A stretch of 64,000 nt of DNA from Polyporus tsugae (taxonomy: Eukaryota; Basidiomycota; Agaricomycetes; Polyporales; Polyporaceae): contig JAHRBS010000004.1 of the NCBI GenBank assembly GCA_024305745.1, forward strand, positions 5,208,001-5,272,000. The letters are read 5' to 3'. Shown piece after piece: positions 25,031 to 64,000 of this stretch; the first letter of the stretch is position 1; each line of letters opens with the position of its first letter. Position numbers and translations under genes: made by a program. The notes under the pieces were generated by a model. The model had not been told where the DNA came from, ran no database searches, and was given only the letters and a program-made list of their open reading frames with translations.

Positions 25031-26034
25031 AGGTATGGCCTTCCTACCGCACACGCCAGCTACAACCACTCCCGCTCGCCAAACTCCTGCACAAACGGGC
25101 TGTCGCACTCGCCTTCGCACACGACATCTCAACATCGTCCTCGTTCTCCTCAGCCACCAATATGTACCTGTCTTTCTGCCAGCGCCAGGGTCTCCCCTTT
25201 GACCCCACACCCGACACGCTCTCCCTCTTCGTCACCAATGAATCCCTCCGCAACCTGGAACCCCGATCCATCAACTCGTACCTCTCAGGCATCTGCAGTG
25301 AGCTCGAGCCTTTCTACCCTCGCGTGCGAGCCGCTCGGTCCAGCCCCCTCGTGCGCGCAACCCTCACGGGCGCCATGCGCCTTTACAGCAAGCCCGTGAG
25401 GCGCAAGCGCGCACTCGCAACTGACGACCTCGACCTCGTCACCACCTCCCTGCCGCGCAAACGCTCCCATGATGACCTCCTTTTCCTCGCGCAACTCCTC
25501 ACAGGGTTTTACGGGCTCTTGCGTCTCGGAGAGCTCGTCTGGCCAGACAACCCCAAACTGCGCACCTACCGGAAAGTGTGCCGCCGCACCTCCGTCTCCA
25601 CCAACGCCACCACCTACGCCTTCAACCTGCACTCCCACAAATCTGACCGTGCGTTCGACGGCGACCGTGTCCTCGTCGACTCGGACCTGTCCGGCCCACA
25701 CCCACACGCCGCTTTCCACGCATACCTCACCAGCAGGGACTCCAGCTTCCCTTATCATTCCGAGCTGTGGCTCCGCGCCGATGGGTCCGTCCCATGCAGG
25801 GCCTGGTTCATGCGCCGCCTACGCGCCCTCTTCCCATCGGATATCAGCGGCCACTCCATGCGTTCCGGTGGAGCCACCGCCCTCGCCATTGCCGGTGTCC
25901 CCGCTACACAAATCCAAGCCATCGGATGTTGGTCCTCTGATGCATGGCAAGCCTACATCAGGAAGCACCCTGTCATCGTGCATGCCCTTATGATAGCCAA
26001 CCAGCTTGCGTTTGCCGGAGCTGGCAGTACCTAG
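25012..26034 (+). CDS. Tyrosine recombinase of the Ngaro/DIRS-like element
   Basis: 340 residues with a phage-integrase-type fold. The N-terminal half has a SAM-like core-binding region (TNMYLSFCQRQGLPF, INSYLSGI). The catalytic half shows the first Arg in GFYGLLRLGELVW, the His and second Arg in ISGHSMRSGGATAL, and the nucleophilic Tyr in WSSDAWQAYIRKHPV. All four key residues are present and the frame is intact. It should catalyse insertion of a circular DNA copy without a classic integrase. It overlaps the end of pol by 19 bp. Confidence 0.9.
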   Translation: MPRTTLEVWPSYRTRQLQPLPLAKLLHKRAVALAFAHDISTSSSFSSATNMYLSFCQRQGLPFDPTPDTLSLFVTNESLRNLEPRSINSYLSGICSELEPFYPRVRAARSSPLVRATLTGAMRLYSKPVRRKRALATDDLDLVTTSLPRKRSHDDLLFLAQLLTGFYGLLRLGELVWPDNPKLRTYRKVCRRTSVSTNATTYAFNLHSHKSDRAFDGDRVLVDSDLSGPHPHAAFHAYLTSRDSSFPYHSELWLRADGSVPCRAWFMRRLRALFPSDISGHSMRSGGATALAIAGVPATQIQAIGCWSSDAWQAYIRKHPVIVHALMIANQLAFAGAGST

Positions 26035-38042: not shown

Positions 38043-40425
38043 ATGCCGCGAATGGGACAAGTAAGTACTGCGAGGAGGACTTCAACGCGAACAGCATCCA
38101 CGCAATCGTGGGCGCTTAATCTCGCGTCGCGTACTCCCATGTCCACCCCTCGGCGCGAGCCAGCAACGTCCCTGGCACGGGATCTACCGTCTACGCTTGC
38201 CTACATCTACGCTACGTGCCCACCTAGGGTGGATACTGCGACATCCAAATCCCTGTTCGACGACTTCCTGGCCAGCTCGAGGAGGTACCCAGATACAGAC
38301 CCCCCGGACAAATATTTGGAGAGTTTCGTGGACTTTCTAAAGGGGCGTATTGAAGGATCGTTAGATGACCTGCAGGCTTTCATTCGGGAGTACTCAACGG
38401 AGACGCGTGGCAGATGGCGGACCCACTGCATCCAAAAGGTCGAGGACGCCATGAAGGTCTTAGAGGCGATGGACCGCGGAGAGGAAGGCGACTCTATCGT
38501 GATCTATCCCCAGGAGGACATCGGGACCAAGAAGGTGAAGATAGTGCCGTCCACAAGGAAGCAAGCGGTAGACGTTACTAAGCGGGCCTTGTCTTGCGCG
38601 AACGAGGCGGACGAGAGGGGTACGTCTGGGAATTGATTTTCTATCAAGAAGTGCCGTAACTGACTGATAGCGATGTGCTGGCAGTGAAATTTGTCAAAAC
38701 CCATGGCGCGTACAGCTTACGCCTGGTGAACGTGTCTGTCGGTGTATCCGTTCAGGGCGCTGAGGTTCACTGCGCAGCTGGTACCTTGGTGAGTGATCGG
38801 CTAGTAAGGGAAAGCTTTGGGTAGGATCCATTTGCTTACCCTGTTACAGTACGCCCGTCATGCGCCACCCAACGCCCGCTTGACGGAATCCAACCGGGGT
38901 GTTACCAGTGCTCCCGGTGGGCGTCGCAAACGGGAGAACAGAATGTACGTCTTGGTACCGGCGCGCGTCAAAGCAAAGGCGGCGGGGACGTCATCCCGGA
39001 ACGCGATTACCAACGGGAGCGGGCTCGTCCAACAGGGAGAGGCGGTGGTGGCGGTGGTGGCGGTGGATGACGAGATCGACGAGTTGGCCGACGACGATGG
39101 CGAGAATGGCGTGACGGGGTCTAGCAGCGCAGGGAAACCTCTAATCTGGAGGTGGGACTCGAGGGAGGTGAGTGATGGTATAAGTTTCGGATCTGGAGCT
39201 TATGAATTAAATGCTGACGGAACTCTAGTGCGACAACTGCCTGAATCCGGGGGACGGCGTTCAGTGCACGCCTGCCCCTGGATGTGCGGGGGTCTGCATA
39301 ATCTGCCAGAAGGCGCGTCAACGGTGCACTCATTTCGGTAGAGACAGTCAAGGCGAGATCAAGGCGAGATACCTCCCGGTCGCGATCGCGACCGAGAATG
39401 GGCAGCACGCGATACGAAAGGACGTCCCTGCACGCTATCGGGTCTGGGTGGAGGCCCTGTGCTACACGTTGGAGACGGATCCGACCGCGCCACAAGGACA
39501 ACTGCTTGACGCGCAGGCCTTGAGGGCCAAGTTGAGCGCGGCCTCTTCGAAGTTCGAACTCGCAGAAGAGGGCCGAACTCCGTACAGGAATGCTACCTCT
39601 CGCCTACCTCGGCTTACTCGCACCAAGTCGAAAGCGGTGGAAGATATGGCGCTCGTGACAGCGCATGGACCGAAGAATACCCAGGACTGGAGCACGGGAG
39701 AGAGACATGGGGGGGATACGTCGACCGAATCAGGGGGAGGACCAGCACAGAAGAATCCGCGTCCGACAGACGGCGAAATACCGCGCGCTATGGACAACCC
39801 AGAGTCGGTCGCGCCCAGATCCAGATCGACATCACAAGGGCCTCGTAGGGAAGCGGGATTGGCACCGCGAACGATGCCGCTGTTCCTGCCCACCCCCACC
39901 GAAGACAGAAGCTCGGTCGCTGAGAGGACCAACCCTACCCGTGCCGCGTCCACAAGGCCCCGGTCTGACCGAGCGCAGACGTCAGGGAGTGGCTTCTTTC
40001 ACATCGACCCGGAAGGGCCATTCGGATCTTTGCTAGTAGATGAAGGAGAGGCCGATGCAGGCCAGTCGCGCCCAGAGGTCACCGGCACTGGCGGAGCGCC
40101 TTCAAACCCTGAAGGGAGAGAAGGGAGGGGAGGCGGGACAGCCCAGAAGGAGTGGGATGGTGGAGTGGGCGATGTCCAACAAGCTGCCAGGATCATGGCT
40201 GCTCAGATAGAGTACGATGTGGCAGCACGTCGAGCCCAAGATATGCGGAGGTCGCTCGAGGTCGGGGAAGGGCAGCGTTCAACGATCGGGGGGTCCGAGT
40301 CTCACTGGCGAGGACTGGGTCCAGCTGTCAAGCAGGCCCAGCTCTGGCTCGTAGAGAGCCAAATGGGTTACCTGGAGGCGACAGAAGGGTTGACGATGTC
40401 GCGGTTGCCAACCCGGGAGGAGTGA
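38043..40425 (+). CDS. Orphan family gene A: N-terminal shared domain, Cys-rich cluster, C-terminal coiled coil
   Basis: The four-exon model is 38043-38623, 38671-38788, 38850-39167 and 39229-40425. All introns are GT-AG and frame-keeping, giving 737 residues. Residues about 55-160 carry a block shared with the genes at 42.9 and 47.5 kb (RRYPDTDPPDKYLESFVDFL then DDLQAFIREYSTETRGR). An acidic linker precedes a probable zinc cluster at residue 340 onward with spacing C-x2-C-x8-C-x5-C-x3-C-x2-C-x6-C-x-H. A long Arg/Pro/Ser-rich region and a C-terminal helix (IEYDVAARRAQDMRRSLEV) follow. No known family is recognised. The cluster resembles DNA- or protein-binding Cys motifs common in mushroom proteins (inference). 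The intact frame suggests a working gene. Confidence 0.62.
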
Positions 40426-42854: not shown

Positions 42855-44806
42855 ATGTGGCCGGCCGCTCGCAATGGTGTACAATCCGCTGTGCTCCCTC
42901 CATTCATCCGTACAGAAGATGCACAAGAACTCAATAGCATACTGATGGCTTGCATGGCGTCGTGCAGGAAGCCACCGTTAGACGACTCGGACGACACCCT
43001 TTCTGCGTTGTACGAGAGATTCATGCGCGTCGTGGAGTTATTCCCAGCAGAAAACCCTCCCGACGAGTACTTGGAGACCATGGTCCGTTTCTTGTGCACG
43101 AACCGCCCCCAGCCACCACGACCGGATATCGAAACTTTCATCAGGAGATACGCGGCCACCATTGGACAGCGAAAGTTCACCGCGGCGATGGATCACGGAG
43201 TGAAGACACAAGCGTGGCTCGATAGGACAAGAGACGACTTGAAGAACTGGAACTGGCACGAGTACTTGAATGGCGACCTGCCCATGAGAAGTGAGATTGT
43301 GGAGCGCGTTCGAGCATTGGAGGAAGCGAATCAAGACGCCGAGAATGCAATAGATTCTGCAACCGATTGGCCAGGTAAGTTAACTTGCCTTATAAACGGT
43401 TGGGTTACTTTCGTAGAACGGACTGATGAATCATGATCTCCTCAGATCGCTTTCTCGATCACCTTAGAGAACGAAATCCTGATCTCGTCGAGATCGGCAC
43501 TGTGCCGGTGTACAGCGGAGTCGATCCCGACGGATGTGAAGGGCCAGGTAAGAAACATCGCTATAGAAAGGGTTTGGGCTTGGTTCGTAGAAAGTACTGA
43601 TGAAGCTTCATCTGCTCAGAGCCTTATCTCGACGACCGTCATGGAGAAAGAAATCACGACCTCGTCGAGATCGGCACTGTTGACGTGGACACGACAGGTG
43701 ATCCATACGGTGGCGGCTCAGAGACAGACTGGCAGCAGCCATGGCTGCAAGTCGACGGAGTGCCAAGCGAAGGCTTTGAGGTCTGGACGGGATACCTCGC
43801 CTGCCCCACGCAGGGCATCGGGAGAGGCCTTACGGTCAGACCTTGCGAGTCGGAATCGAAAAGCAGGGGTCATCCAATGGTGAGTGCCCTGTGCGCAGTA
43901 AGTTGACGTTACGTAGAGGTTGACCACGATGTGCAGGCGGACGGGTCATCCATGGCCGTGGGAGACGAGGATATGCCTCCGTCTAGCCCGAAGAGCTGTG
44001 GGGTGCAGCAGCGAACGGACCGGGATGCCTGGGTGCAACCGCTGGACATGTCAGAAGGTAGAGATGATATTGCAGCGAACAGGAGCTCAGCCAATATCAT
44101 GACAGCTCGGGAGGACGTGGCCACTATGGAGTATGCGGATCACCACGACGATGAGGGCCGGCGCACCCACATTACCCAAACGTACAGGCGGCAAGGGTTG
44201 AGAAACCCTCGGACCGTCCTTCAGACCGTTGCTGGGTCCGTCGATGTGGCGCCCAAGTTCACCGGCAGCAGCCCACTGGAGGAGGACGCCGTAGGATCTG
44301 GTCGTGTCGAAGACCTCACTCTCAAGGCTCTTCCCATCCCCTATTTCTCTCCCAGCCCACCAGGATCGGACTTTTTTCGTCTCGACTCCTCCTCACCGGG
44401 ATTCGCGTTGGGGGATACAGTAGAGGGGGGTCCAGACGGGGTCGTATTCCCCGTGTTACTTGGACCGGAAGACGGCGCCATAACGACAACCTTCGACGCA
44501 CCTACGTCCTCGGCCTCTGTATTGCACAAGAAAACACCACCTGATGACGTCGCGGGTTCCGCATGGTTGGGGGAACCCCTACCCATTCAGATCACGCTAG
44601 CGCCTGCAACTACGGGGGTTGGAACCCACGCTAGACGATCCGCGATCACGCGTGCAGTTCGAGTTCGCGCGTTACGGAATGAACACGCGTTGGCACAAGA
44701 GAGACTGCGCCTCTTGGAAGAACGTAGGGAGGTACTCGAGAGAAAGCTCAATGACGTAGAGGGCGCACCTATTCCCCGGACGCCGACCCAGGAACCTCCG
44801 GCCTAA
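42855..44806 (+). CDS. Orphan family gene B, with a duplicated exon
   Basis: The four-exon model is 42855-43374, 43446-43547, 43620-43879 and 43937-44806, all GT-AG and in frame, for 583 residues. The shared block is LFPAENPPDEYLETMVRFL then PDIETFIRRYAATIGQRKF, followed by a Trp-rich helical segment. Exons 2 and 3 start with near copies of one another (ERNPDLVEIGTV and ERNHDLVEIGTV), and the introns before them are alike too, with a period of about 173 bp. The C-terminus is a strong heptad helix (RALRNEHALAQERLRLLEER). It lacks the Cys cluster of gene A. Function unknown. Confidence 0.62.
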
Positions 44807-46548: not shown

Positions 46549-47383
46549 CATTCCAAGGGGTCGACCAATATTGGTCGCTGACTAAGCCGGAGATTGGTCC
46601 CCCAGACCAAAAGGACCAATCCAACCCCAACCCTAGACCGACAATAGGCGCCCGAAACCGAAGACCATCGCGAGGGCGAGCAATGCTGCCGGAGGCAGTC
46701 CAACACCCTACCTAATGAGTTTCAGAGTGGGAAAGCAATGGTTTGAAGGCCTAAAATATATTTCCTCCCTTTCAGGAGCATACCGTACACATGGGAAGCA
46801 AAGAGAAGCAATAGTACACTAATTGACTGACAGAAAAGTTGAGCAGAAACAAAACACTATATCGTCGTAAGTGGTAGACGCTTTCTAATGATACTACACT
46901 CGTTTGAAAGCGGTGAGACATGCCTTTCAAACGAGCCCAAAATCCCAGAACTGGAGGAGAAACGGGAATGTCAAGTGCACTACAAGCGCTGACATGCCGG
47001 GTTGCCCGAGCTAATACATAGTCTAGGCTACTACGAAAATGATACTCACTAATGAATGGGTGCCCCTATATCACAGCGCGAGAGGTGCGCGCCACGTTGA
47101 TTAACCAAAGTAGATATCAAAAAGAGCAGGTGGGGGAGAAGCAGTGATCGCGGCCCAGGTCAGGGGATGGGACAGCCGCCGCGAGCTTTCGGAATTTGAA
47201 AGCGCGAAAGGCGATTTTTGGGAAGCTGGAGAGCCAAATAGCTGAGGAAAATGAAGAGGCCTGGATAAATGCGAGTACAAGCTGGCGGTGGTCATGAAGT
47301 GAGCGCGCGACGATTGGTCCAACCCCTGGGCACCTTTGGGCGCCTGACGGCGCCCCGTCCGTCCGGGCCACCCCCTTGGAATG
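46549..47383. mobile_element. CATTCCAAGGG-TIR element, copy 1
   Basis: 835 bp with 12-bp inverted termini CATTCCAAGGGG. Near the left end are palindromic words built on TTGGTC/GACCAA. The right end carries GGGCACC and GCGCC palindromes. A related element with the same terminus lies at 52889-53595. No transposase frame and no clear target-site duplication. It sits directly upstream of gene C. Confidence 0.6.
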
Positions 47384-49202: not shown

Positions 49203-50416
49203 TCAGAAACCCATCCTCTCAGCAATCCGTCTTCGATGGCGAGGCTGTGCCCAATGAGCTGCAATAAATGTAGACGTTATAGGAACACACCTTATGTATT
49301 GACAGTTGACGACCGCGGCCGTGTTAAGGTTGGCCAGGGCCAGGCGACAGGCATGAGCGGCTCTACAGCCCGCCGCGGGATGGCCGATCCGGGCACGGGC
49401 AAGAACATCCTTCATGACTTGAACGACACGTGCAAGCATCTCTCTGTCAATCGCCTTGCGGTCGACCTCTCGATACCACGAGTGCGCCCACGATGGATGA
49501 GCAGGGGCAAACTCGAGAAGGACGTGGCGGATGAACTTGGTACAACGCTAACAGAAAGGATTGTCAACCCAGCCGGTCGTCAACCCAGCCTGTGAAACGG
49601 ACTGGTAGCTCACTTCGGAACGGATTCGTACGGTCAAGTCACGCATCAATTCGGCGTACACAAAGTGTTGACTGATCGAGTCGAAGTCGACAATCCAGGG
49701 TGGGTTAAGCGTGGCGACCATCATGGACTGGCCGCCGTAAAAGTGTGTTAGGATGAGCAACCCGACCAGGGCAACGTGGACCCCAACCCTACGACGGTCA
49801 TTCAGACTTCGAATATGTGGATTCACTCAGTCCTGCATCCGGGGGGTCATGTCTCCTCCTTCGGGTTGTGTCTCTGGCATCAGCGCTCTGAGTCGCGCAC
49901 AGAAATCCGTGTACGCGCTGGGCCGAATACCGTTGAGATCCGACCAGAACGCCCAGAGGGCGCAGAGGATTGTTTGGATCGTATCATGTGCGAGGGGTGC
50001 GACACGCAATCGCGCGAACGCCCGGGAGCGGAGAAAAGCCAGAAGAATCCGGATAACGGGTCCATCAGTCGGACGAAGCCCGTTTAATGGTAAGCGAACC
50101 TGCAACCGAGGTCGGTACTGATTCATTGCTACCAAGCGATTTGGTAACTCACCGTGAGTTCCGCTCCGTCGTGAGACACCCGGATGGAGTAGTGGAGTAC
50201 GTCGGCGTTTTGCGCGGTGCAAGGCTCAAAGACAGGTGGCTTCGTAGTCGCGGTGGATAGCAGGTACACGTCTGTGCTTGGTGCTGGGTTAGAGGTGGCC
50301 TTGATAGCGATAGAAAGCACCGGAGGGGCCAAAAGTCGCGTGTCGATCTTCCTGATATGACGTGATTCACGGTCACCTGATTTCCCGGTCATGGGTCGCC
50401 GGAACTTCAACTTCAC
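49203..50416 (-). CDS. Hypothetical multi-exon protein
   Basis: On the minus strand an exon from about 50416 (MKLKFRRPMTGKSGDRE) ends at DGAELT. A 54-bp GT-AG intron joins it to VRLPLNGLRPTDGPVIRILLAFLRSRAFARLRV, which runs to about 49850. Later parts (VALVGLLILTHFYGGQSMMVATL, DFDSISQHFVYAELMRDLTVRIRSEV and a short segment near 49400) look like further exons, but the joints are unclear. I recognise no family. It is the same strand as the next gene upstream and tail to tail with gene C. Confidence 0.4.
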
Positions 50417-50537
50417 GCCAGGAGGCGGTTATCCGACATGCTGCGCGACCTCCATATCCGCAATTGTATTGTATAGCTAGGCTGTCGAAACGCGCAGTCG
50501 CCTGCTTGCACGCGTACGAGTGGAACATGGTTCTCTA

Positions 50538-51446
50538 CTACGAAGGCGGTGTGGGTGAGGGGATTTGCAGCAGGATTCCGTCAGAGCAAAGGTACGGGAG
50601 AGTCCGGGCGGTTACGGAGATGGAAACGCTCTCTCGTGGGTCCTCGGCCTGGTGAATGTCACTATCGTACGCGTCGGCCGAGTCACACGCCTCGCACCGC
50701 CCGAGCTCATCGCCGTTCCCCCCGGCAGAGCCATCGCGCTCCGCATCCTCCAAATCTATAGCGTCACATGGGGTTGAGGCGTCCCTCCAGGTGGCGAGGT
50801 CGAACATCCGTCCCACAGCCATCCGATGCTCGCGGTAGTATATCTTTCTGTAGTGAAATATCTCCTGTCATGCGTATTCAGTTACCATCCGCTACGACAT
50901 TTTAGTATATGAAACATACCAGGGGGAAAAATTCCTTGGCTAGGCGAGCCAGACCGGCCACTGTGGGCCCCATATCGTACGTCTCCGGGTATCGTACGTA
51001 AGGTGTAACATGAGGTATCAAGTCGCGCCGTCCTTGCCAATCAAAGAGCTGGAGACGAGGGTCACCGCTGGCCCATGCGTGCACCGCGATGAGCAGAACG
51101 CGGGTCGGTGTCCACGCTTCCATTGGGTAGAACCACCGGGCGCAAAACGATGTTTCCATGTAGGCGAGCGCAGTCTCCAGCATCTCCACGTCCGGAGCTG
51201 TGGCGGTTTGGACACACAGCGGCGCCTGTTGTCCAGTTGGTCATGGGAGAAACATGCAAGTTCCATCGCTAGACTCACCGTCATCCTCCAATTGGGGCCT
51301 CTCATAACCCGCAGGTAGTACTTCAAGTCCTTCCACGAGGCCACGGTAGTCACTGGTGGTGCAGTATCGCGATTCCACCGGGCGAATAGAAAGATTCGCA
51401 GAGGCCACGAGTCAGGGTTGGGTAGGCTCACTTTGATCTTCGGCAT
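50538..51446 (-). CDS. Hypothetical three-exon protein
   Basis: The first exon begins MPKIKVSLPNPDSWPLRIFLF and ends at PNWRMT. After an intron of about 53 bp (about 51229-51281) the second exon reads VEMLETALAYMETSFCARWFYPMEAW to LARLAKEFFPL. A second intron (about 50864-50920) leads to EIFHYRKIYYREHRMAVGRMFDLATW and an acidic, disordered tail. Introns are GT-AG. The protein is about 250 residues with no recognised domain. Trp and Tyr content and orientation resemble the 703-codon ORF at 60-62 kb, but I see no clear shared motif. Confidence 0.45.
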
Positions 51447-51842
51447 GGATGGTGAGGAAGGAGACGCGTCGCCACCCCGAGTCCTGTTGGCAACAACACC
51501 CGATTCCCTTGGTCATGTGACGTATTCATTGTTGGGGAAAGGGAATGAGGGCGATACTGTTCATGGCGGGTCACGAAGACCATGGGGCGAGCCGTTATGC
51601 AGATAAACGTGGATACAGTTCAGACGTGCTCGTTGAGTATCCTTGCTGTGCGAACTACCGAAACCGCAAAACAAGTCGCTAAGGAAAAACACGGGGACTC
51701 GGGGAGGACATGGGGAGGCCGGACGGCCGTAGTACAGCAGACCTCGCAAAAGTAGCAAATGGCGGGGAATCGGGTGAAGAACACATGGACACACAAACCG
51801 CAGATATAAGATGAGGCATCCTTGCAGGTTCCAACCACAGCC

Positions 51843-52241
51843 ATGCCGCTGAAACGTCAGCACTCTGTCCCCTCCCCTGCTACCACTCCAGCCCGAAAAG
51901 TCCCTCGTCTCATGAGGATTCATATGCCTTCTTCGCCCCAACCTGTCTCAGGCGCCCCTACTCTAGTGTCGCCCTCCGACACAGAACGCGTCCCCACCGC
52001 TCCCTTCCCCGGACCCGTCTATCCCCATGACGCCCTATCCAGCTCAGGCTCCTTGCGGGGCCTGGACACCGCCGAGCTTGTGGCGCGCCTCGAGGAGTTG
52101 GCGGAGCACTACGAGGAAGCTGTCGACGACACAGAGGTGGAGATCCTCAAGTTGCGGCGACAAGTCAGTGAGGCTCGGCGCCGTTTGGAGGCGCCTGCTT
52201 CCTTTGAAGAGCGGCAGGCGACGTCCTGTGGCATTCCCTAG
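51843..52241 (+). CDS. Small hypothetical protein with C-terminal coiled coil
   Basis: 132 codons. A Ser/Pro-rich N-terminus (MPLKRQHSVPSPATTPARK) is followed by a helix with heptad pattern (DTAELVARLEELAEHYEEAV, then DTEVEILKLRRQVSEARRRL). A TAG at 52239-52241 is followed in the same frame by 49 further open codons (SYLRKTTVDGKK to SVEEQER). The stop may therefore be a recent mutation or the frame may be spliced. The coiled-coil end recalls genes A-C. Confidence 0.45.
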   Translation: MPLKRQHSVPSPATTPARKVPRLMRIHMPSSPQPVSGAPTLVSPSDTERVPTAPFPGPVYPHDALSSSGSLRGLDTAELVARLEELAEHYEEAVDDTEVEILKLRRQVSEARRRLEAPASFEERQATSCGIP

Positions 52242-52888
52242 TCCTATCTGCGCAAGACGACCGTGGATGGCAAGAAGTCGGAGGAAGAAACCACTGTCGC
52301 AGGGGCGGGGCAGGTGGGTCACGGTTTAGGAGGGGGCATGGACAAGCAAGCTGGGCACGTGGAAGAAAGGTCGGTGGAGGAGCAAGAGCGTTGAGGTGAC
52401 CGAGGAGGAGTGATGGGCGGCATAGGACCCCGGAGGCGCTACCGTTACGCTGGATGGCAGGCGAGGGAGCGCATCCGTCCCTCTAGCGTACCTGTCGTCG
52501 TAGACCGATTTCGTATAAAAAAGGTTGTTAGCACACGCACTCACTTGAATAGGCCATGTAGATTTACCTCGGCGGGGGTAGACAGCCCGTTCCATGGGGC
52601 GACGTGGCCCATACGCCGGACGGATAGCAGCAGGAAACGGACGAGAATGAAGTCAAAGTACATAGCTCTACCCCGTCATCCACGAAGCAGGCGATCAGCA
52701 GCGAACGCACACATCTTCGTTTGCGTAGATGACGTTCCCGTGCCGGAGGTCTGCAGCAGTCCTGCACGGCACGAGAGGTGTGTGGGTGAGAGTGAACAAA
52801 GAGGAAGCGCACGCTGGCGTGGCAGAAGGTTGTTAGTTGTTAGCGTCTCTTTCACGTGGTCCCAGCAGGCACATGTCGGCAGCCCCGC
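52242..52888. other. Intergenic, no gene seen
   Basis: Short frames only, between the small coiled-coil gene and the second CATTCCAAGGG element. No motif or repeat was recognised. Confidence 0.35.
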
Positions 52889-53595
52889 CATTCCAAGGGT
52901 GCCGACCAATTTGGTCCAATTTGGTCCCCCAGACCAAATTTGGTCGAGGGGATCAAATAAACCCTAGCCACACGTTCTAAACCCTAGGGCCAAATATGGA
53001 AGTGGGCCGTCAGAAAGCATGGGCGTCTAAAGCGCGATATGGCTCGCCACAGAGCTTGAGGGTGGATGCAGCCTGCTTGGAGACTTACGACGGCACAAAA
53101 GCAGGCAGAAAATACATTGAATATTGTAGGGAAGCCAATAGGATAGTATTCAGTGGCCAGAAGTCAAAACCCTAGGGCTAAAAACAGCGAAAGACTGAAT
53201 ACAAATGGAATACAAACTGGAGTGGAACTAGAGTGCACGGTAAGACAGTGCTGGGTTCGTCTGAAAGTTTTTATTTTCCTGTTTAAAACAAGCCCAAGAT
53301 CGAGGAAATTGGTACAGAACTCGGGGAGGAATCGCAATTGCAACCCGACGGTGCACGCCAGAGGGGACGCCGAACTGCAGACTAAAACGCGGCGGCGCGC
53401 GCGCCGCCGCGAGACCCCAGTGAATGACGCACAATCCGGGAAGATTTTTAGCATAATTTGCACTATTTTTCAGGCCGAATTGAGGAAGCTGGAGGGAGGG
53501 GGAAGGCATCCATGGTGGAAGGCGCGCCTTCGGCGCGCAACCGACCCTGGGCACCTTTCTGGGCCGCGAAGCGGCCCAGCCCTACCCTTGGAATG
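52889..53595. mobile_element. CATTCCAAGGG-TIR element, copy 2
   Basis: 707 bp with perfect 12-bp inverted termini CATTCCAAGGGT and ACCCTTGGAATG. Next to the left end are stacked palindromes of GACCAAATTTGGTC type (52905-52950). Next to the right end are GGGCCGCGAAGCGGCCC and CGCGCCTTCGGCGCG. It has no coding capacity and belongs with the element at 46549-47383. Its right end is about 330 bp upstream of the TET/JBP gene. Confidence 0.65.
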
Positions 53596-53922
53596 ACTAA
53601 TTTCCCCACATGTCTTTCACAGTCACGTGCATCTGTGCGTCACTCCTTCCCAATATTTCCTGAATCTATACTCTTGACTGAGCCTTTACTCCCATTCTCA
53701 TTCTTGTGTTTGCGACCCCCAGAAATGTAAGCTTGTACTCTGAATGTGATTTTCGACTGTTCACTGATTTTCATATTCACGCAGAGGCAGTAGGAGGGAC
53801 CGGTAGTAGGAGGGACCTGGAGCCCCAGCAGCGGTGTTTGTCTCCCGGGCTTTTGTTGTGGTAAGTGTAGGTGGCACACACTTACGTGCACTATGTCTCA
53901 TGCTATTGCATGCTAGCTGGAA

Positions 53923-55429
53923 ATGGTTGGCGGTGGATACCACCTTCGCTCTAGGGGCCCACCACCTACGGACCTGGACACACAGGCTGCGGCGCGGTCT
54001 CTCCCCGACAGCGATGACGACATTCTTCTCCGCAACACCTTAGAGTATCGTGGGGGTGTTTTCAGCACACGTCCCGCTCCCAAAAAGGTCAAGGCTACCG
54101 CCGCCCAGGTCCTTATGGTGTACAGCGATTACGACCCCTTTGGTTCCTCCGACCTCACCTCACTTGACGATTCCGAGGATACCGCCCTTCCCGCCCAGCC
54201 CGGTTCCAAGAAAAGGCGTCGGTATGTTGTAATTCCAATCTCATTTCATGGGGCTCATTCATGCCTGCAGACGCACTAAGCGGCGCCGTAGAGAGGATAC
54301 CCAACAAACGCAGATTCGCGCGGGACGGGTGCGCCTCGCTCGCAAGGCGGTTGTCTCCGCTCAGATGAAGGTCAACACAGGTGAATAGCCTTCGGCCTAT
54401 ACGCACGATGTCCTTCGTTCACTCACCATGCGGTGCACAGTGCGGCTCCAGAAGTTCGAGATGGAGAAAGCCGTAACTTACACGATGCTCCAGGACCCGA
54501 GCCAGGTGGTCTGCGAAGAGTCTAACGCTACCGTGCTGGATGGCGACACTCCGCAACGGGTTGTCAGTGCGGACGGTTACGACGTTTTGTACCGTATTCC
54601 CGGGGCGTGCCGTGGGAAGTCTTTGGTACGTTCATCTCCCTGTGTGGACTTCACCGCTCCATTACCAAGTCCAGGATTACGTCTCGGGGCTCTGTCATGA
54701 TTGGGGCCGCGTGGCCAAAATCAAGAAGTCTGTCGCCAATGATAAGAAGGGGGGATACAAGAAAATGCGCGGTGCTTTGGTCGGTACCACACGTCTGTGT
54801 ACACTTTGGCACGCAATCGGGCACAAGGTCAGTCGGGGAATATATATATTGTGTGGCGGGAGGACCTACTCATATACCACCTTCATCGATAGTGTGACGA
54901 TCCTACGCCGGCATCCGACATTTTGCACAGCGGCAAAACTTTCCGGGCGGCTGTGGACACCATTTCGGGGCTGGACATGGTCAGCGCATACGTCATGGCG
55001 GCCTTGGAGAGGATCGATCCCACCCATCATGCTCTACTGGAGACGCTGTGGAATAGGACCTGCGAGAAGGAAAAGGTTCAACATCTCTTTGATTCCATCA
55101 ATGGTGGGCTAGCTTATGAGGGTCGCGAGGTCGTGTTCAATCGCTGGTCGGAACGTCACTGGGACCGCCATGACCCGCACTGGTCTTGGGCCAATATCTT
55201 CTACTTTGGTACCTTCAAGAAGTCCATGCTTCGCTTCCCCCAGATCGACGTGACGGTTATGCTGCATCCTGGCGACATGGTCTTTTTCCGTGGCAGGGAT
55301 TTGTGTCATGAGGCCCTGGATTGGGGTTCAGGGACGCGCAATTTTCTTGTTCATTTTACTCATCAGCACATGTGGGACCACATGGACATGACGTGTGCAT
55401 CGGGGAAGGCTATGAATGTGGAGACATAG
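53923..55429 (+). CDS. TET/JBP family 2-oxoglutarate/Fe(II) dioxygenase
   Basis: The five-exon model is 53923-54221, 54271-54380, 54441-54625, 54675-54827 and 54893-55429. All introns are GT-AG, giving 427 residues with no lesion. The N-terminal 140 residues are basic and acidic low-complexity. The C-terminal catalytic core has the double-stranded beta-helix signature of the fungal TET/JBP family: the HxD iron site at H338-W-D340 (RHWDRHDPHWSWANIF), VMLHPGDMVFFRG, the second iron His at 388 (DLCHEALDW) and the 2OG-binding Arg at 398 (RNFLVHFT). Members oxidise 5-methylcytosine or thymine in DNA. The gene converges on the KDZ transposase 140 bp away, an arrangement known from mushroom KDZ transposons. 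Substrate is inferred from the family only. The true start could lie in an upstream exon. Confidence 0.85.
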
Positions 55430-55569
55430 TTCTGTTTCAAACGGGATATACGTTGTTGTTAGATTACATCTTCATCATACCAAGAATCCTACCCCACTCT
55501 TCCTTGTCGTTGCCCAGGTGCATCAGAGGTCGGATGGACTGCAATGCCGCCTCAGCAAAAAGTGCCAGT

Positions 55570-58500
55570 TCACTTAGTCTTATCGACACTCACTAACGTA
55601 TAGTCCAGTCGGTCGTCGGTCGGGGTCTGTGGCGCTTGTGTCACGTCGTATACCTTCTTCAACCCTTCATCGTCATCTTCCTTTAGATCGCCTATCATCT
55701 GGACATGCTGACGGTGCGCAGCCACGACAGACTTCTCCACCTCTCTGGCCATTTGTGAGAACATATGCGACTTCTGCGTTGCATATGCCCTCGCCCCTAT
55801 AGTTCCATCATTCTTGCAATCAGTGGCCATTCGACTTCGGCGTTGCATACGTCCTCGCACCTATAGTTTGATTGTTGTTGCCACCAGTCGCCGTATCCCA
55901 TAAGCCAGACGCGAACTCAAATCCTCGTCGAGCGGCCCTCCCATCCGCATATAGGAGGTTCACCTCCTCGTCAGTGCGTTTCTTGGCGGCCCATGCACGG
56001 AACCAGTCGGTTCGTCTACCTGCAAATATGTATCCAGTGGGGTTAGTTCCGCTTCTGCGTTCCATCGGTTAGCTGCGCACATTCACTCTCCCAAAGCTCG
56101 CCCGCCTCAGGCGATAACGATTGGGGACCTGCGGGCTGAAAGATCCAAGGCATCTGTCGCTTCGTATCTCCTGTGTTATGCAGCTGTCGGGTGGGGGGAA
56201 AGGTCAAGTCTTTTGCTTTGTCGATGGAGCGAAGGGCTGGCGGTATATCCGTTGCAGGATCCACAACCTGAGCCGGCATGCGAAGCTTCTTCAAGCGCTC
56301 CAAGTTTTGATTGTATATCTCCGCTAGGAACCTGGCTTGATCTTGCACCCCTTTTATTTTGCGATGTCCCCTTGTGTGTTCCTTCTGGCCCCGCGCATGC
56401 TTCTCCTTCTCCTCGAGTAGGGCGCCTTTCTTGCGCAGCGCCATCCGGATGCCGGCGAGGAGATCATACGCATGTCCTGTACGAAGCTTCAGCTCGGCCA
56501 GCGCCGCGCGGGTCAGAACAGAATCTCTACTGCTAGTCCCCCATTCTAGGTCTGAGGGCAAACCCAAAGCCTGCGTCTCTGGGCCGTCGTGAGGGAGATC
56601 GGGGTCTTCTAGGTCCTCTTCGCACAGGACGCCCCCATAGCCTGACGTCGCGTCGTGCTCCGAGGCTAGCTCCGGCAACGCGTTCTCCAGCTCTCTCCGC
56701 CATTCATCGAAGTTGTCGCCCAATGCCCGCCTGGCAGCCCCTAACTGGGCCACGTTCTCGGAAGATACTCCGCCTTGGCCCTGTGCCGATCGTCGAAATG
56801 TAACCACTCGCTGCCTTATCTCTTCCCTAAGGGATAAACCTCAGTATTTTTACTGCAGGCGCATGGACGTAATCCCCATATTTATGTCACTCACTGCATG
56901 TATTCCAGTTCTATTGCGTTTTTCAGGCACATCACAGCAGAAGGGGGAAGGATCGCAACCAACGGGGAATGGGGGATGTCGGGTTCATGGCTTGCCACGG
57001 TCTCCCCCACCCGTTCTGGGCCTGCAGGATCGGATGGCGACATGGCGGCTGTGAGATGTGTCCTAGAAGGCTTGACAGTACGACCTAACAATTCATCGAG
57101 TGCGGAACCCTTGCTCGGAACTGGGCCCTTCCTTAGTACGCATGCTGTCAAAGACAACTAGTACTAATTAGACTTACGCTTGGCAACATCTAATACGTAC
57201 ACACTCTGTGGTCTATTCTTGGGACGAGTGTGGTACGTCACTGGGGTAAGTGCGTCGTCATCAAGGTTCAGGTCCAGCCATTCTTTCAGTTCCGAAGGAC
57301 CAGCTTCTTGGGTGAGCGCGGCCAGATCTCTGGTCTGTTGGAGTTGCAGTAGGAGCTTGTCGAGCAGTTTCCGGTGAAGGTACTTCGCTAAATATGCAGG
57401 TTTATAAGTGAGCAAGCGGAACAACCAGTCCCTACTAAATTGGCGTACCCCGGCCTTCGTTCTTGTACCAGTTCCAAGAGTTAAAGAAGTCGTTGAGCGC
57501 ATCCCTTCGCGCTCCTCCATTCATCTCTCGGGTGGACAATCCGATGGCGTTGTGCTCAGCCCAAATTGTTTCTACCATCTCCCCGCATGTATGACCGGTA
57601 CCCTGCTTGAAGCCCATGCAGTAATCTGTCTGACATGATTCTTGGTGGGCGAGCATGTGCATTTGAGGGAGTAGAATGCGAAGTTGGGCCACAATGTGAG
57701 CGAACTTCTCGGGTAGGGCCCACTCTTTCCATTGATCCAGCAGGTTAGCGATGTATTGACAGCCCACGTCGTAGGTGAGAAGCCACTCCAAGAGATCCTC
57801 AGCGGTCTCCAGAGCACCAGCCAAGGCCAGGTCCAGCAGGGGATACCTGTGGATCGTCATCAAAAAGTAGGTGCGCCTGCATGGGGTACGAGACATATGC
57901 TTCGCCGCCAGGCATATCACAAGTGCCTCTGGCCCTGAAACACCCATGTCGAGTGCACGTTATGGAGATAACCCCGCTTACATCGAGGTTCTTGAATTTC
58001 CCGACGCGTTGCGACCTCGTCACCTTGAACCCGCTACATGTCACCAGCTTGCAGACAGTGAGAAAATGAGGGGATTTACAGTGCGCCACCACACTTACTA
58101 TTTGCCAGTCCCCCTTGGGATATTTCTTCAGGAAGTCCTGCAGCTTATTCACGTCATTGAAAAATCCGTTGTCCCCCACCAGACTGTAGTCGGTATCATC
58201 GCCTGGTTTCGTCTTTTTCTGAAGACTGTAGTTGCCGTCCGCTCCTAGAAACAGACGATAGATGTACCTTCGTGACCTCGCATCAGTAAGTTGTACGTCG
58301 ATGTGGCCCTCAAACAGAAACATACTGGAGATCGGGGTCTGTGGACCTGAAGTCGGCCGGTAGGTTGACGCCCGGCCACGGGCAGGTGAAACAAGGCACG
58401 GTCAAGAGCTTGGGATCTCGCCCGAGATAACCAAGTCCATGACACGACCCGGATCGTTTCATCATCTTCATGAATCTCCATAACCTGAACACGTAAAGAA

Positions 58501-59720
58501 ACTCGCGATATCGATCCTGTGATGAAATGACGATGAGATCCGGCTGCTACCCACATATAGCGGACTTACGGTCACCATGTGCGCTGCCTCATTATTTGTT
58601 CGTCGGCGAAGCTTGCGCATGTAGTCGTATGGAGACTTCCTTGATGCCAGGATGTCCTCGTGAGCATCCTCCAGGACCTCCACGGTGAACGCACTCTGCA
58701 GCTTCAGGAAGCTTGCGGGAATTAACCCCGCGAGCACGAGTTGGTCTTCATGAGGGAGACGACGAGGGGAGCTGCATTCGCAGTACTCTATACGGACGGT
58801 ATGGATGCCGTTGACATGATTTATTACCAGATTGTGGATCTCGGGCGCGCCAGACGACATCTGATCGCATCTCTGGCCTTGATGCCCCAGATAGTGCACC
58901 AGGCCCAGTTCACAGAGGTCCCGCTTCTTGAAACACCACTTCGCCACGTCGGACTGCGGCTGAATCCACTCTTCCACCCAGTGATAGGGGGCATGTCGAT
59001 GAGCTTCGCACATGCAGACTTGACACAACGCTGGAGGTTGAGAACAGTCACGGCATCGGTAGAGGGCTGGGCGTAGGTTGCAATGTTGACATGGACCGGG
59101 TATCTTGGGATGTGCCTCTGTCTCCAGCAGACGAAGAAGAATGAGCGGAATGTGGGCGCGGGCTTCGTCTAATTTTTCATTCGCAAACTTCTACGGCCAA
59201 GTAAGCCGGTACGACAAGACGCCACATGTTGGAGGCTACTCACCTTCTTCTTTTTCTGATTTGTCTTGTCCTGGGAGGTTATGGTGGGCATCGGATGTGG
59301 AGGGTGGTCGTTAGTGGAGGCCACACGTGGAGGTGGTGCACCCAGGGGTGAGGAAATCGAATCTTCGACCATGGGCTCATCTTCGGCGTTAACACAATAA
59401 GCTGGCTGCCATCGTGAATGGGAATCCTCGGGTACGCCTTCAGAGATGGGGATGTCGGGTAACGGAGGGTTATTGAAAGTAAAAGAGGTAGAGGACTCCG
59501 CGTTCGGTGGTGGGGAATGCAGTCGTGGTAACTTCGAGGGACGAGGATCGTCATATTCCTCTACATTGACCACGCGATCGGTCCATTCCACCCCAGAAGG
59601 ACTGGCTTCGTAGTAGTTCTGCACCACCATAGATGCGCCGCGATTTCCGGACGGACGAGAGGCTGGATGTTCTCGTTCGATGACCTTTGCCGCAGTCTTC
59701 TTGGGTTTCTTGAGGGCCAT
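55570..59720 (-). CDS. KDZ-type transposase with CxC2 cysteine cluster
   Basis: Minus-strand gene of about ten exons and roughly 1,000 residues. Exon 1 (59720-59244) is a disordered, Lys-rich N-terminus. Exon 2 (59190 to about 58577) holds the CxC2 cluster (CQHCNLRPALYRCRDC, then CQVCMCEAHRHAPYH) and NGIHTVRIEYCEC. DRYREFLYVFRLWRFMKMMK follows from 58516. The catalytic part has YIYRLFLGADGNY, YDVGCQY (acidic residue) and the HTCGEMVETIWAEHN block with the catalytic Glu. A C-terminal helical region (HAYDLLAGIRMALRKKG) and GARAYATQKSHMFSQM end the protein. Introns have normal splice sites and I see no stop or frameshift, so it may be active. Its role is cut-and-paste DNA transposition. Terminal repeats of the element were not identified. 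Confidence 0.85.
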
Positions 59721-59980
59721 GCCGACGAGGATGGGGGACTGTCAGCCTGAGCAATATCGAACAAAGAGTCGCGAAAGGAGACAGCAAGCCGAAACCTCGT
59801 GCCTAAGTCGTGGTCGTTAGCAGCGATCCTTCAGCGCCTCTAAATGACTCATACAAAGGGCTATGTGGATGCAGCCAAGCCGGTTCGCGAGTCGCCTACA
59901 GCGTAGAAAAAACTAATACTATTCGACTACTTAACATACGGACACTATCATACGATGCATGCACGATACAGACGGATAAA

Positions 59981-62092
59981 CTACTTGGGCCCGGGAGGGT
60001 AACAATGGGGAACGATAGGTGCACGGCCAGAGGCGTCGAAAAATGTCTGAGTGTAAAACAACGCCAACCCCAACTCCTGCTCCTCGATAGTCTCCACCGA
60101 ATCCGAAATCAGCAATGGTTTGCCGTCCATGATCTCCCGAGGACACCGAGGCCATGCCATGAGTACCTCGCGAAGCGCATTCAGAGAAATGATTCTACGT
60201 TGAGGGAGAGGGGCGAATAGACCCCAGGAATCGTCCGACGGGATATGAGGCACGACCCACAGACTGCTGGAGGGAAACACACGCGCGACGCATAGTGCCC
60301 TGTCCGCTTCGTGTGCGAGCGAACGCACTGGTCGTATGAAGCGATCTAGAGCCCAAAGCTCGTAACGAAAACCGAGCTCAAATGTCTCCCACAGGATTTG
60401 GGGACCGATCTGATCCGTAACAGCGGTGAGACGGTGCTGATGCCATTCCACCTCTCCGGTCGCGGATGCGTCGATATCTGCGTCGGAAAAGACGCGGCCG
60501 AAGATCTGCTTGATTTCGTATGCGCGCTTGCCGGTTTGCGTGAAGGACTTGGGATCGTCCGGTACCCCGTTGAGAAGGTTTCTCCAAGACTGGGGAGCAA
60601 CTTTCACCGCCCCCGAACCAGGGATTTGCAGCATGTAGAGCCAAACTGGTTGAGCTCGGAGCCAGTTCAGGATATAGCGTTGGAGTCGAACGCGATCCTT
60701 CGGGCCGAGAAGGAGCGCTGGCTCCGGGATCCAGTAGCCCCAGATTTCGGTAGCGAGTTTAGCGACGTGGGACCGATCCACCGCGCGCATTGCTCGATCC
60801 CAACTCGGCAAAGAAGGAGGCATCCATGGATCCGTAACGTCCTGGAACTTATCCCGCCCACGGACTTGGGAAGGATGCGCGAATTTCGAACGGTCTTGTG
60901 CCGCCTTGTCGTCTGAACGGATGATACATATCAGCATTAGCACAAATAAATACGCCGGCCACCTACAAGGTGAAAAATGTTTGTTCTCCGTGTCCTTCTG
61001 GCCCCTAATGCGAGATGAAGGGCCAGTTCTGGAACGGCGGTCATGACCTGATTGCAGCGCGGAGACCCTACCCCCGCTCTCTTGCCGTGCTCCTCTTGGC
61101 GCTATGGCACGATAGTCGTCGGGGTCGGAAATGTTTGCTGTAGGAATTCGGGAGATGTCCATATAGCTGGGGGTGATGAACGTGACCTCCAAATGCTGGG
61201 GGCCAGCGAGCCCTTCGTAGATAGGCACATCGCTCCCCACTTTACAGTGATTGAGCCCAAGTGTCGGTGTAAGGGGAACAAACTTGCGGACTCGAATGTC
61301 GGAGGAGACAACATGAGATGCGCGAACCAGCCAAACGGGAATACCCAAGGTGAATAGCTTCTGCGCCTCGTTAGGCTCCGACGTCCACGCACCCATGAGT
61401 AGCTCGTGGACCGGGAGGGGGGCCCGGGAAGGTCGTCGAGAGAGAAGGTCGTAAAATATCATGAAGGCGGAGCACAGAAGCCAGTTCCGCTGCACCGCTG
61501 CAAGTTGCACCACCTGGTCACGATACGTCGCGGTGACGTGGCGCAGCCTTAGCCACGCCATCATCATCTGTTGATCGTATTGCTCCAAAGGTTGCGGATT
61601 GATCGTTGACAGAGGAGGGATGTATTGACGCGCCTTCGACGACATGTCCATAACCAGAGGCTCCAAGGCGTGGAGAAAATCTGCACGCCAACGACCGAAA
61701 CCTCGCACGAAGCCATTGGGTACGCAGACGAATTGATCGGGGGAAGGATGAGTCCACATCGAGGCGCACGGATGGGAGGGGGACGGTGTATCATGCAGGG
61801 GCGATAGTCCCTTCGGAATGGCGGCAAGGTAAGGGTATTCCGAAGTATATAGTTGAGGCCACTGCAGGGGGTCGTGTTTCCCGAACCCTCCATTCTCCCG
61901 CCTGAAGACCGACACGATCCCTTGAACGATCTCAGGGATATAGGTGACATTCGGCGAGGTTACAAGATACCCGTTCTGGGGCCCCCACGCAGCAACCAAA
62001 CCGTCGTTAAAACCAACATAGTCGGCATCTGAATGGTAATGCTCAATGTGTGCCACACGAATAATGAGCCGCTGGTATCGAACCTTGGACAA
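59981..62092 (-). CDS. Large hypothetical protein beside the KDZ transposase
   Basis: A 703-codon frame on the minus strand, 260 bp upstream of the transposase and in the same direction. It is rich in Trp, Tyr and Pro, with repeated short modules such as FGRWRADFLHALEPLV, MMMAWLRLRHVTATYRDQVV, YILNWLRAQPVWLYML and RRIISLNALREVLMAWPRCP. No known domain is recognised, though similar orphan proteins sit near KDZ elements in mushroom genomes in my recollection. A hydrophobic stretch in mid-protein (CRWPAYLFVLMLICIIRS, about 60913-60966) fits an in-frame 54-bp GT-AG intron better than a membrane helix, so the spliced protein is probably about 685 residues. Candidate accessory gene of the transposon cassette. 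Confidence 0.55.
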   Translation of the reverse strand: MSKVRYQRLIIRVAHIEHYHSDADYVGFNDGLVAAWGPQNGYLVTSPNVTYIPEIVQGIVSVFRRENGGFGKHDPLQWPQLYTSEYPYLAAIPKGLSPLHDTPSPSHPCASMWTHPSPDQFVCVPNGFVRGFGRWRADFLHALEPLVMDMSSKARQYIPPLSTINPQPLEQYDQQMMMAWLRLRHVTATYRDQVVQLAAVQRNWLLCSAFMIFYDLLSRRPSRAPLPVHELLMGAWTSEPNEAQKLFTLGIPVWLVRASHVVSSDIRVRKFVPLTPTLGLNHCKVGSDVPIYEGLAGPQHLEVTFITPSYMDISRIPTANISDPDDYRAIAPRGARQESGGRVSALQSGHDRRSRTGPSSRIRGQKDTENKHFSPCRWPAYLFVLMLICIIRSDDKAAQDRSKFAHPSQVRGRDKFQDVTDPWMPPSLPSWDRAMRAVDRSHVAKLATEIWGYWIPEPALLLGPKDRVRLQRYILNWLRAQPVWLYMLQIPGSGAVKVAPQSWRNLLNGVPDDPKSFTQTGKRAYEIKQIFGRVFSDADIDASATGEVEWHQHRLTAVTDQIGPQILWETFELGFRYELWALDRFIRPVRSLAHEADRALCVARVFPSSSLWVVPHIPSDDSWGLFAPLPQRRIISLNALREVLMAWPRCPREIMDGKPLLISDSVETIEEQELGLALFYTQTFFDASGRAPIVPHCYPPGPK

Positions 62093-62719
62093 CGGTTACA
62101 TTGACCGGCAAAGCCATAATTGAGGAAGGCGAGAGGAAAGGGACTCGAAGTCGTCTGGTTCCTCGATGTGGGGCAAATGCGCCAATGTGATCCACCGAGG
62201 TCAATATCTAGGAAAGACCGCGCGAGGGTGATCTGCAGGCTACGACGGCGTAGGAGGAAGTTACAGTCGAAGATGCGCTTTGGACTCCGCTCCGCGTTTG
62301 CCGTACCACGTGCTCATGGCCGGCGGCGGCAGATCCCGCCGTTGCAACCACTCAGAGGCGCCCATGCTGGCACCGACCCTCGCGATGGTCTTCGGTGTCA
62401 CAGCAGCAGGTAGCTCACAGACAACGTGTTTCACTGATGAGGCCAGGCCTGAGGCCTGAGCTGTGAGGTGTGAGTAATCCACAGAAAGATTCGCCATCAG
62501 TGTATTGTGACTCGGACTCATACGCCGAGTCAGCTGTGCCTCCTCCACTGTACGTCAAGTTCGCACCTTGGGCTGCTATACCAACTAATTCATAATGGAG
62601 CGAAATGTAGTGCTATATATCCCACTGAGGGAAACCCCAGAACGCCGGCTGCGCTCTCGCGGCCGTACTGCCCCATTGATGACTGCGCGTCCCAGGGTAG
62701 TCGGCGTGCGTAGCAAAAA
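62093..62719. other. Intergenic, divergent promoter region
   Basis: Lies upstream of both the 703-codon ORF (-) and the right-edge gene (+). Only short frames are present. Promoters are expected here, but I see no clear TATA box. Confidence 0.35.
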
Positions 62720-62864
62720 ACTTGGCGGGTTTAGGACTTAATCGCGGCTTTGCGACGCTAATCCACCTCCCACTTCGCCTTCTGCACTACGGCCGAACCC
62801 ACACTTGGCGGCTTTAGGACTTAATCGCGGCTTTGCAACGCTAATCCACCTCTCACTTCGCCTT
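62720..62864 (+). repeat. Tandem duplication of 62 bp, period 83 bp
   Basis: ACTTGGCGG...CACTTCGCCTT occurs at 62720-62781 and 62803-62864 with three or four differences. It lies 110 bp upstream of the start of the right-edge gene, where it could carry duplicated regulatory sites. Confidence 0.75.
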
Positions 62865-62971
62865 TAATACGACGCAACAGCCAAGCCGTCAGCGCCGTTA
62901 GGGTCCCTCTTCTCCAGCCAACTGCCCCGCCTTTCCCAGACACCTACCCCTATACCCTACCGCGCTCCTCT

Positions 62972-64000
62972 ATGGCCGAGGACCCTCGTGTACCTCCCCT
63001 TGTTCGTGCCGCGGCCCCTCCCAAATATCGAATTCGCGATGAGCTACCATGCTGCAGTATAACCGGACGAAAGCACACCCACATGATCGTGGTGGGAGGA
63101 CCAAGGACCCATAAAGAAAACATAGGACTTATACTGAGCGTCGTAAGTGATGGTCTGGGCTTATATCCATGTGGCTGACTCGTAATGTTTCCCTTCTCCG
63201 CGGCCGCCTTGCAAGTGCCCGAATGTATGTCTTTCACGCTGCGGGACTTCCATATCATTCACTCATTGTATTTGGCGTGCAAAGCCTCGTGGCTCCCAGT
63301 GTACCGGCCATCTCAAGCCACTGAAGTTGCAGATGTCTGTGCCGAATCGCCTAGGTCTCCTGCTCGACCTGGCTGTTCTAGACCCTCCCCCTTTCAAGAG
63401 CGAAGCATTCGCCCGTTGGTGCTGCCAGGCGACGGTCGCGCTGCTTGCTCGGGATACGCCAGCCGTGGATGCCATGCCTCTTTTACCTGGAGTCTTCCTC
63501 GCTTTCACCCCCTCGATCCACGGCCTAGAACACCTACCGCGCCTTGAACTGGGGGTCTCATGAAGCTCCTACCCAAGTTTTGGCTCGTGCGAACCCTACA
63601 GTGAAGACGGTGGACGGAGAGGAGGTAGATGTGCTTGTGGTCATATACGAGATGGTGCGCATCCCTGTTCGCAGGCCAGCTCCGGCAAGCGTGTGGACAA
63701 CTAACGAGTCCTGCTTTTTAGGACCGTATCGGTCCCTTTCGCATCGTCGCCAAAGGGAAAAAGCTCGGCGCTATCGTGGGGTTCACGTTTCGACAACCCG
63801 CCATCCTCACCGCCCTCGGGTACGCGCCCAACTCGCGAGAGTTGGGCGCGTACCTCATGTACGAGCCCTTCCTGCGGGAATGGACCAAACCTGTCCTACC
63901 GTCTCAGACTTTAACACTGTGTGAGGGAGGAGGTGTTATTTATCGGCATCCCCGGGTCCATGCCGCGCTATGGCTCGACCGCTACGTCAAGGATATTTAT
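62972..64000 (+). CDS. Hypothetical protein, partial at right edge, one frameshift
   Basis: Exon 1 (62972-63142) starts MAEDPRVPPLVRAAAPPKYR. A 73-bp intron leads to exon 2 (63216 on) with VPNRLGLLLDLAVLDPPPF and MPLLPGVFLAFTPS. In a run of five G near 63549-63553 the frame must shift by one to continue into HEAPTQVLARANPTVKTVDGEEV. After an intron (about 63655-63721) it goes on as DRIGPFRIVAKGKKLGAIVG to the window edge. The homopolymer shift is either a sequencing error or a disabling mutation. A perfect 16-bp inverted repeat (63819-63834 with 63839-63854) lies inside the last exon. I recognise no domain. Proteins with this PLLPGVFLAF/TPS pattern are orphan mushroom proteins in my recollection. 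Confidence 0.5.

Follow-up and report, generated by a model that had tools for sequence, protein, structure and literature searches.

A convergent TET/JBP-type dioxygenase and KDZ transposase in Polyporus tsugae as probable core genes of a low-copy DNA transposon

TET-bearing KDZ elements and the P. tsugae locus

KDZ transposons that carry a TET gene, and with them the idea that the oxidase acts against silencing, reportedly go back to Iyer et al. in 2014; transposons equipped with a methylcytosine oxidase constitute a proposed eukaryotic counter-defence. Transposons combining a KDZ transposase with a TET/JBP gene are described by Kojima 2025 (PMC12730594), and the linkage is repeatedly reported there, as the original prediction had held. 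The same paper proposes an anti-silencing role for the transposon TETs, a function that it states to lack experimental validation, and divides these enzymes into AG, PU and PE types (PMC12730594). The AG type, which is close to CcTet, comprises those of Kyakuja and Zisupton of mushrooms; the Kyakuja AG-type TETs conserve Asp337 and have Gly or Ser at position 331, and in PE-type TETs HxE replaces HxD (PMC12730594). Kyakuja elements have 5'-CA..TG-3' ends and a 7-bp duplication without a terminal inverted repeat, while Zisupton and Dileera generate an 8-bp duplication, Zisupton also having terminal inverted repeats (PMC12730594). As to substrates, CcTet is described there as also oxidising 6mA, and CMD1 as making 5gmC (PMC12730594). 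Among the papers listed in a literature search, none besides Kojima 2025 appears dedicated to TET+ KDZ elements. The concept of a TET+ KDZ transposon is thus already published, while the non-AG pocket and the accessory gene reported below may be new.

The locus under study lies in a 64,000-nucleotide stretch of the P. tsugae genome (the window, C1:5208001-5272000; C-numbers are contigs of the assembly, which has 43,241,137 bases, or 43.2 Mb, on 18 contigs). Comparisons covered its own genome, Pfam, NCBIfam, PDB structures and published descriptions. With the TET+ Kyakuja of Agaricomycotina, the locus shares a KDZ transposase beside a TET/JBP gene and a low number of TET+ families, most genomes that carry such elements having only a few of them (PMC12730594). 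It shares the same combination with the TET+ Dileera of rust fungi, which carry a PU-type TET and differ in being published with 8-bp duplications and from Pucciniomycetes (PMC12730594). We read the pair, with a probability of roughly 0.68, as the coding core of a low-copy TET+ KDZ DNA transposon, probably of at least ~13.9 kb, including a nested 730-bp insertion, and with at least one further gene, here called p703. On the precedent of its family, the KDZ transposase would cut and move the element; the dioxygenase would oxidise CpG 5-methylcytosine, acting probably in trans rather than on its own copy alone, and would thereby weaken silencing by methylation at the genes and ends of the element; p703, which recurs beside a second KDZ family, would serve as an accessory protein of KDZ elements.

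The gene models are sequence-based only, and their splice sites were picked by eye, guided by frame shifts and by the consensus. The TET/JBP-type 2OG/Fe(II) dioxygenase gene (53923..55429, + strand; hereafter TET) encodes 427 aa in five exons (53923-54221, 54271-54380, 54441-54625, 54675-54827 and 54893-55429). All four introns are GT..AG and 49-65 nt long, and the frame has no internal stop, against 7 and 15 stops in the alternative frames. On the opposite strand, the KDZ transposase gene (55464..59720, - strand) encodes 1215 aa in 12 exons, with CxC2 at residues 251-359 and the KDZ domain at 436-667; its 11 introns are likewise all GT..AG (43-68 nt), and its frame is stop-free, against 52 and 39 stops in the alternative frames. 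Together the two models thus hold 15 introns, every one GT..AG and within 43-68 nt. The five-exon dioxygenase with its iron and co-substrate residues and the lesion-free transposase with CxC2, both foreseen in the original prediction, are thereby borne out. The genes lie tail to tail, also as predicted, and it is only the predicted distance of 140 bp that changes: in the present model 34 bp (55430..55463) separate the stop codons, and 140 bp applies if the last KDZ intron is unused. That intron (55551-55593) and the last exon are the least certain part of the KDZ model, the stop lying at 55464 with the intron and at 55570, the end of the open reading frame, without it. KDZ intron 10 (55797-55860) is flanked by near copies of a 37-bp sequence that starts AACTATAGG, with four mismatches counted by eye, and looks as if it was born from a tandem duplication that made its own splice sites.

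Identity of the transposase and the dioxygenase

The KDZ protein was matched by Pfam KDZ (PF18758) over 217 of 217 profile positions at E 6e-43, so that comparison with the family covers the whole profile, and by CxC2 (PF18803) at E 2.6e-23. A weak B-box-like Cys/His cluster (residues 192-224) precedes CxC2. D443, D568 and the Glu-containing GEMVETIWAEH (630-640) are in place; D443, D568 and the Glu within this last segment are the putative DDE catalytic residues of the transposase.

The dioxygenase required a less direct assignment. Pfam Tet_JBP aligned weakly with residues 320-406 (16.6 bits, E 0.0047), below its curated cut-off of 34.9, and the TET/JBP assignment therefore rests on a match to NgTet1 of Naegleria (5cg8), which spans the last 60-62 core residues only and reaches E 4.6e-5 with the single protein and 7.6e-9 when a two-sequence profile including a paralogue from the same genome is used. 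NgTet1 (5cg8, 4lt5) is the nearest solved structure by sequence and shows the same H388, R398 and H406 spacing, although the significant alignment is limited to that terminal part of the core; to our knowledge, NgTet1 is not transposon-derived. CcTet of Coprinopsis cinerea (7vpn) is co-linear over the whole core (241-414), with NR....H.D in register, as are the H and R that follow, but with an E value of 1.3 only and with different pocket residues. A Pfam Tet_JBP profile search of the genome gave no match, nor did its controls, and is hence uninformative. AlphaFold modelling of TET exon 5 with three sequences (mean pLDDT 35.2) was too poor for a fold search.

The catalytic core lies in exon 5 (54893..55429, + strand) and contains N332 R333, H338-x-D340, D343, H388, R398 and H406. 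The paralogue at C14:331773, the sole one covering these positions, keeps H338-x-D340, H388 and R398, and likewise N332-R333, D343 and H406. H338, D340, H388 and R398 align with CcTet, and H388 and R398 also with NgTet1; in these alignments H338-x-D340, H388 and R398 fall on the positions of the residues for iron and 2-oxoglutarate. The HxD...H site, whose loss on realignment the original prediction had named as a refutation, is retained in comparison with both the C14 paralogue and CcTet. The pocket was read with the residue roles that we assume for NgTet1, and its further spacing presumably agrees with NgTet1 as well. Residues 96-108 form a basic stretch, KKRRRRTKRRRRE, that appears nuclear-localisation-like.

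Against the published types, with CcTet residue roles taken from PMC12730594, the AG-type features failed: the CcTet 337 position is Ala349 and not Asp, and the 331 position is Asp343 and not Gly or Ser, in contrast to the Asp337 and Gly/Ser331 of Kyakuja. The C14 paralogue has Thr and Asp at the 337 and 331 positions. The PE-type HxE is absent as well, the motif reading HWD. In this comparison, which covered the AG and PE features, the enzyme looks more NgTet1-like. We entertain tentatively a wider proposal, in which the TET lies outside the AG and PE kinds, has an NgTet1-like 5mC pocket, and belongs to a KDZ lineage that moves with p703 as a KDZ-specific accessory recurring across families. 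If true, KDZ elements would have captured a TET on a separate occasion, and KDZ transposons would possess a third conserved component.

Copies, extent and accessory gene of the repeated unit

The protein and DNA searches of the genome score the best candidates only, so that counts are lower bounds. The TET protein has at least nine matches: five are its own exons, one is a 93% match over residues 1-107 at C14:642047, two belong to the paralogue at C14:331773-332491 (45-55%), and one is a fragment at C1:4759004. For the KDZ protein there are at least 21, of which 10 are its own gene, 8 a distant family on C3 and C5 (26-33%), 1 on C16, and 2 at C7:311690-312360 (92% over residues 1-165 and 85% over 159-206). 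Protein and DNA searches of the assembly, with the best candidates scored, revealed no further copy that holds both genes. For 54233-59074, only distant paralogues occur among the protein matches and no copy spanning the region was found; a DNA search with 57000-58000, the sole part of it searched by DNA, returned only the self-match.

Two truncated copies were found instead, and neither holds both genes. The copy on C14 consists of the TET 5' end and 3.4 kb further out: an outer stretch (49829..52877) is shared at 99.1% and the TET 5' part (53607..54232) at 97.6%, ending inside TET intron 1. The copy on C7 consists of the KDZ 5' end and 2.3 kb further out, in two blocks: the KDZ 5' part with the p703 3' part (59075..60450) is shared at 98.1%, the DNA match ending inside KDZ exon 2, and an outer stretch (62166..63727) at 95.3% and 96.6%. 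LTR retrotransposon sequence sits between the two C7 blocks, and 60451-62165 has no match there. Since both truncated copies repeat outer sequence, the repeated unit is larger than the gene pair and probably reaches 49829-63727 or more, a span that takes in the 703-aa gene and, in part, another probable gene. Segmental duplication could likewise explain the shared flanks, and one repeat unit for both genes is not proven because no copy found spans 54233-59074. The original prediction had named the lack of other copies with the pair as its own refutation; none was found, though the 5' ends of both genes are repeated. Its self-contained transposon stands as regards the intact-looking pair, and not as regards a second full copy, recognisable termini or a unit confined to the pair, the unit being wider. 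The window also contains an LTR retrotransposon (17718-24119, with LTRs of ~333 bp), close copies of which lie near both truncated copies.

The termini were sought in several ways. BLAST of both flanks found no terminal inverted repeat, as published for Kyakuja (PMC12730594). The best inverted match (46654-46676 and 62377-62399; 23 bp, 22/23, E 0.006) was rejected, its right arm lying inside the C7-shared block and its left arm outside the C14 block. A scan for 8-bp duplications gave 1604 identical 8-mer pairs; with inverted ends required, the best pair reached 9/12, and 2 pairs reached at least 9/12, compared with 1-5 in shifted controls. A scan for CA..TG ends with a 7-bp duplication gave 41 pairs in the scanned range, none distinguished. 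The CA..TG ends and 7-bp duplications of Kyakuja (PMC12730594) were accordingly not identified here, and the transposase is assigned at the KDZ level only. Positions 49829 and 63727 were rejected as true ends, no flanking duplication being seen and a probable gene crossing 63727. The terminal repeats and target-site duplication expected in the original prediction thus did not emerge, with no inverted repeat found and no duplication beyond chance.

Within the unit, the nested 730-bp element (52878..53607) is bounded by a 7-bp duplication, ACATGTC (52871-52877 and 53608-53614). It is missing on C14, lies 315 bp ahead of the TET start codon, where it may affect TET transcription, and also occurs at C1:263480 and C5:1111897 without the rest of the unit. 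On the right, the probable further gene (63350..64000, + strand) crosses the C7 breakpoint at 63727 and continues for ~611 bases past the window end (1-611 of the adjoining stretch L066); its start and exons were placed roughly by eye, and it has no Pfam match. From 64929, just to the right of the unit, another repeat begins (L066 929-5000, C1:5272929-5277000), which is 98% identical over 4 kb to C15:2185080-2189115.

Upstream of the KDZ gene, p703 is a frame of 703 aa (59981..62092, - strand) with a provisional start (TTG in the mechanical list of open reading frames) and probably one internal intron, read by eye. It has no Pfam, NCBIfam or PDB match, and AlphaFold modelling of its N-terminal part with four sequences (mean pLDDT 35.7) was too poor for a fold search. 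Related DNA occurs on C7, C11, C15 and at C5:253201, with stops or frame changes in the relatives on C15 and C5. Among the matches listed, no KDZ lies near the relatives on C11, C15 and at C5:253201, so that some p703 relatives have no detected KDZ beside them. The C3/C5 KDZ family has a p703 homologue close by, ~3 kb away from its CxC2 exon (E 3e-9, 23% over 294 residues). This second family (L036-L039) has copies at C3:2302000, C3:1232500, C5:1029500 and C5:1856000 that are 98.5-99.7% alike over the 9.4-9.8 kb compared, and one of its ends reads CCCCGTTGTAGTACCTAC; a search of the window and a further 5 kb, allowing up to four mismatches, did not find this motif. The family resembles the present locus in having a KDZ with CxC2 and a nearby p703 homologue, and differs in that its KDZ is ~26-33% identical to that of the window and that no TET was detected (no match below E 0.05 within 16 kb, the best, 0.070 over 19 residues, lying beyond the family edge). 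Because two KDZ lineages share p703, the protein is suggested to be a component of KDZ elements. Its recurrence beside both families points to a helper protein without a counterpart among the families described in Pfam, NCBIfam and PDB.

CpG decay and alternative readings

Differences between repeat copies are frequently of the CpG type. Of the 146 differences that separate L036 from L039, both members of the C3/C5 KDZ family, 127 are changes of CpG to TpG/CpA, with C-to-T rates of 7.0% of CpG Cs and 0.37% of other Cs and no strong preference for the base before the C. CpG-type differences make up 32/52 and 17/23 in the retrotransposon pairs, 5/7 between the window unit and C14, and 11/16, 20/30 and 15/24 between the window unit and C7. 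No CpG bias is seen in the nested 730-bp element (0/7 and 1/11), and the comparison of p703 with its older C15 relative gives 39/357. Four matches to PF00145 (DNA-methylase-like) on C17, C7 and C15 exceed the cut-off. The CpG-specific decay of several repeats together with these methylase-like genes makes a 5mC substrate likely, and suggests CpG methylation of many repeats on which the TET could act.

CpG losses over the blocks compared amount to 6 for the window copy and 45 for the truncated copies (1 v 4, 4 v 7 and 1 v 34), 34 of these 45 falling in the C7 stretch 62166-63727. The retrotransposon copy on C7 has more losses than that of the window (21 v 11 and 20 v 6), the one on C14 fewer (5 v 12). 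In the C3/C5 KDZ family, the C5:1856000 copy lost ~105 CpGs relative to the others, and the remaining three of four copies are nearly undecayed. We do not take these losses as showing protection in cis by the TET, the difference resting on one C7 stretch and the KDZ family without a detected TET being nearly undecayed in three of its four copies; since that family keeps its CpGs in those copies, avoiding CpG decay does not require a TET in the element. The predicted escape from silencing gains partial support, the idea being published and several repeats being CpG-decayed, and is weakened by the family in which no TET was detected. An intact low-copy element amid CpG-decaying repeats offers a clean test case, with the KDZ family in which no TET was detected as a control in the same genome.

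The transposon reading is favoured by the open models, the KDZ/CxC2 matches, the NgTet1 match and the conserved HxD/H/R, and further by the truncated copies, the recurrence of p703, the CpG decay with methylase-like genes, and the published TET/KDZ transposons. Counted against it are the sub-threshold Tet_JBP score, the lack of ends found and the single full copy, as well as the nested 730-bp element without CpG bias and the KDZ family that, with no TET detected, retains its CpGs in three of four copies. A somewhat unlikely yet serious alternative is a dead or dying element whose frames are open through recent insertion, which is immobile, and whose TET is without a function or works for the host. 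Such an element would account for the single complete copy beside two truncated ones, for the 730-bp element 315 bp upstream of the TET start codon and for the unrecognisable ends; both genes, however, are open across 15 introns, and there are few differences from the truncated copies, with CpG losses of 6 in the window against 45 (34 of the 45 in C7 62166-63727).

That the TET belongs to a left repeat unit, as on C14, and the KDZ gene to a right one, as on C7, joined by chance nesting, is quite improbable. The C14 block is TET-side only and the C7 blocks KDZ-side only, no copy has both, and the region is rich in repeats and contains a nested insertion; yet the genes lie tail to tail with 34 bp between their stops in the model, no insertion scar was seen by eye, the truncated copies end inside the genes (TET intron 1 and KDZ exon 2) rather than between them, and TET/KDZ linkage is repeatedly reported (PMC12730594). 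An alternative that we judge improbable concerns the reaction: the dioxygenase might act on another base or yield another product (6-methyladenine, thymine or a hypermodified cytosine) instead of converting 5mC to 5hmC. The activities described for CcTet on 6mA and for CMD1 (PMC12730594) give this some ground, the substrate not being fixed by sequence alone, but the positions of CcTet Gly331 and Asp337 are Asp and Ala here, an arrangement unlike CcTet and NgTet1-like, and the CpG decay suggests that 5mC exists.

Further repeats and frames were observed in the window. A 62-bp repeat (62720-62781 and 62803-62864) is nearly tandem and 95% identical. Two long frames at 24077-26034, without a Pfam match at E 0.01, resemble, in our reading, part of a reverse transcriptase/RNase H and a tyrosine-recombinase-like protein. 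The frames at 38043-38636 and 42855-43436, also without a Pfam match at E 0.01, contain protein segments similar by eye (PPD-YLE...FL...FIR-Y) and are possibly related genes.
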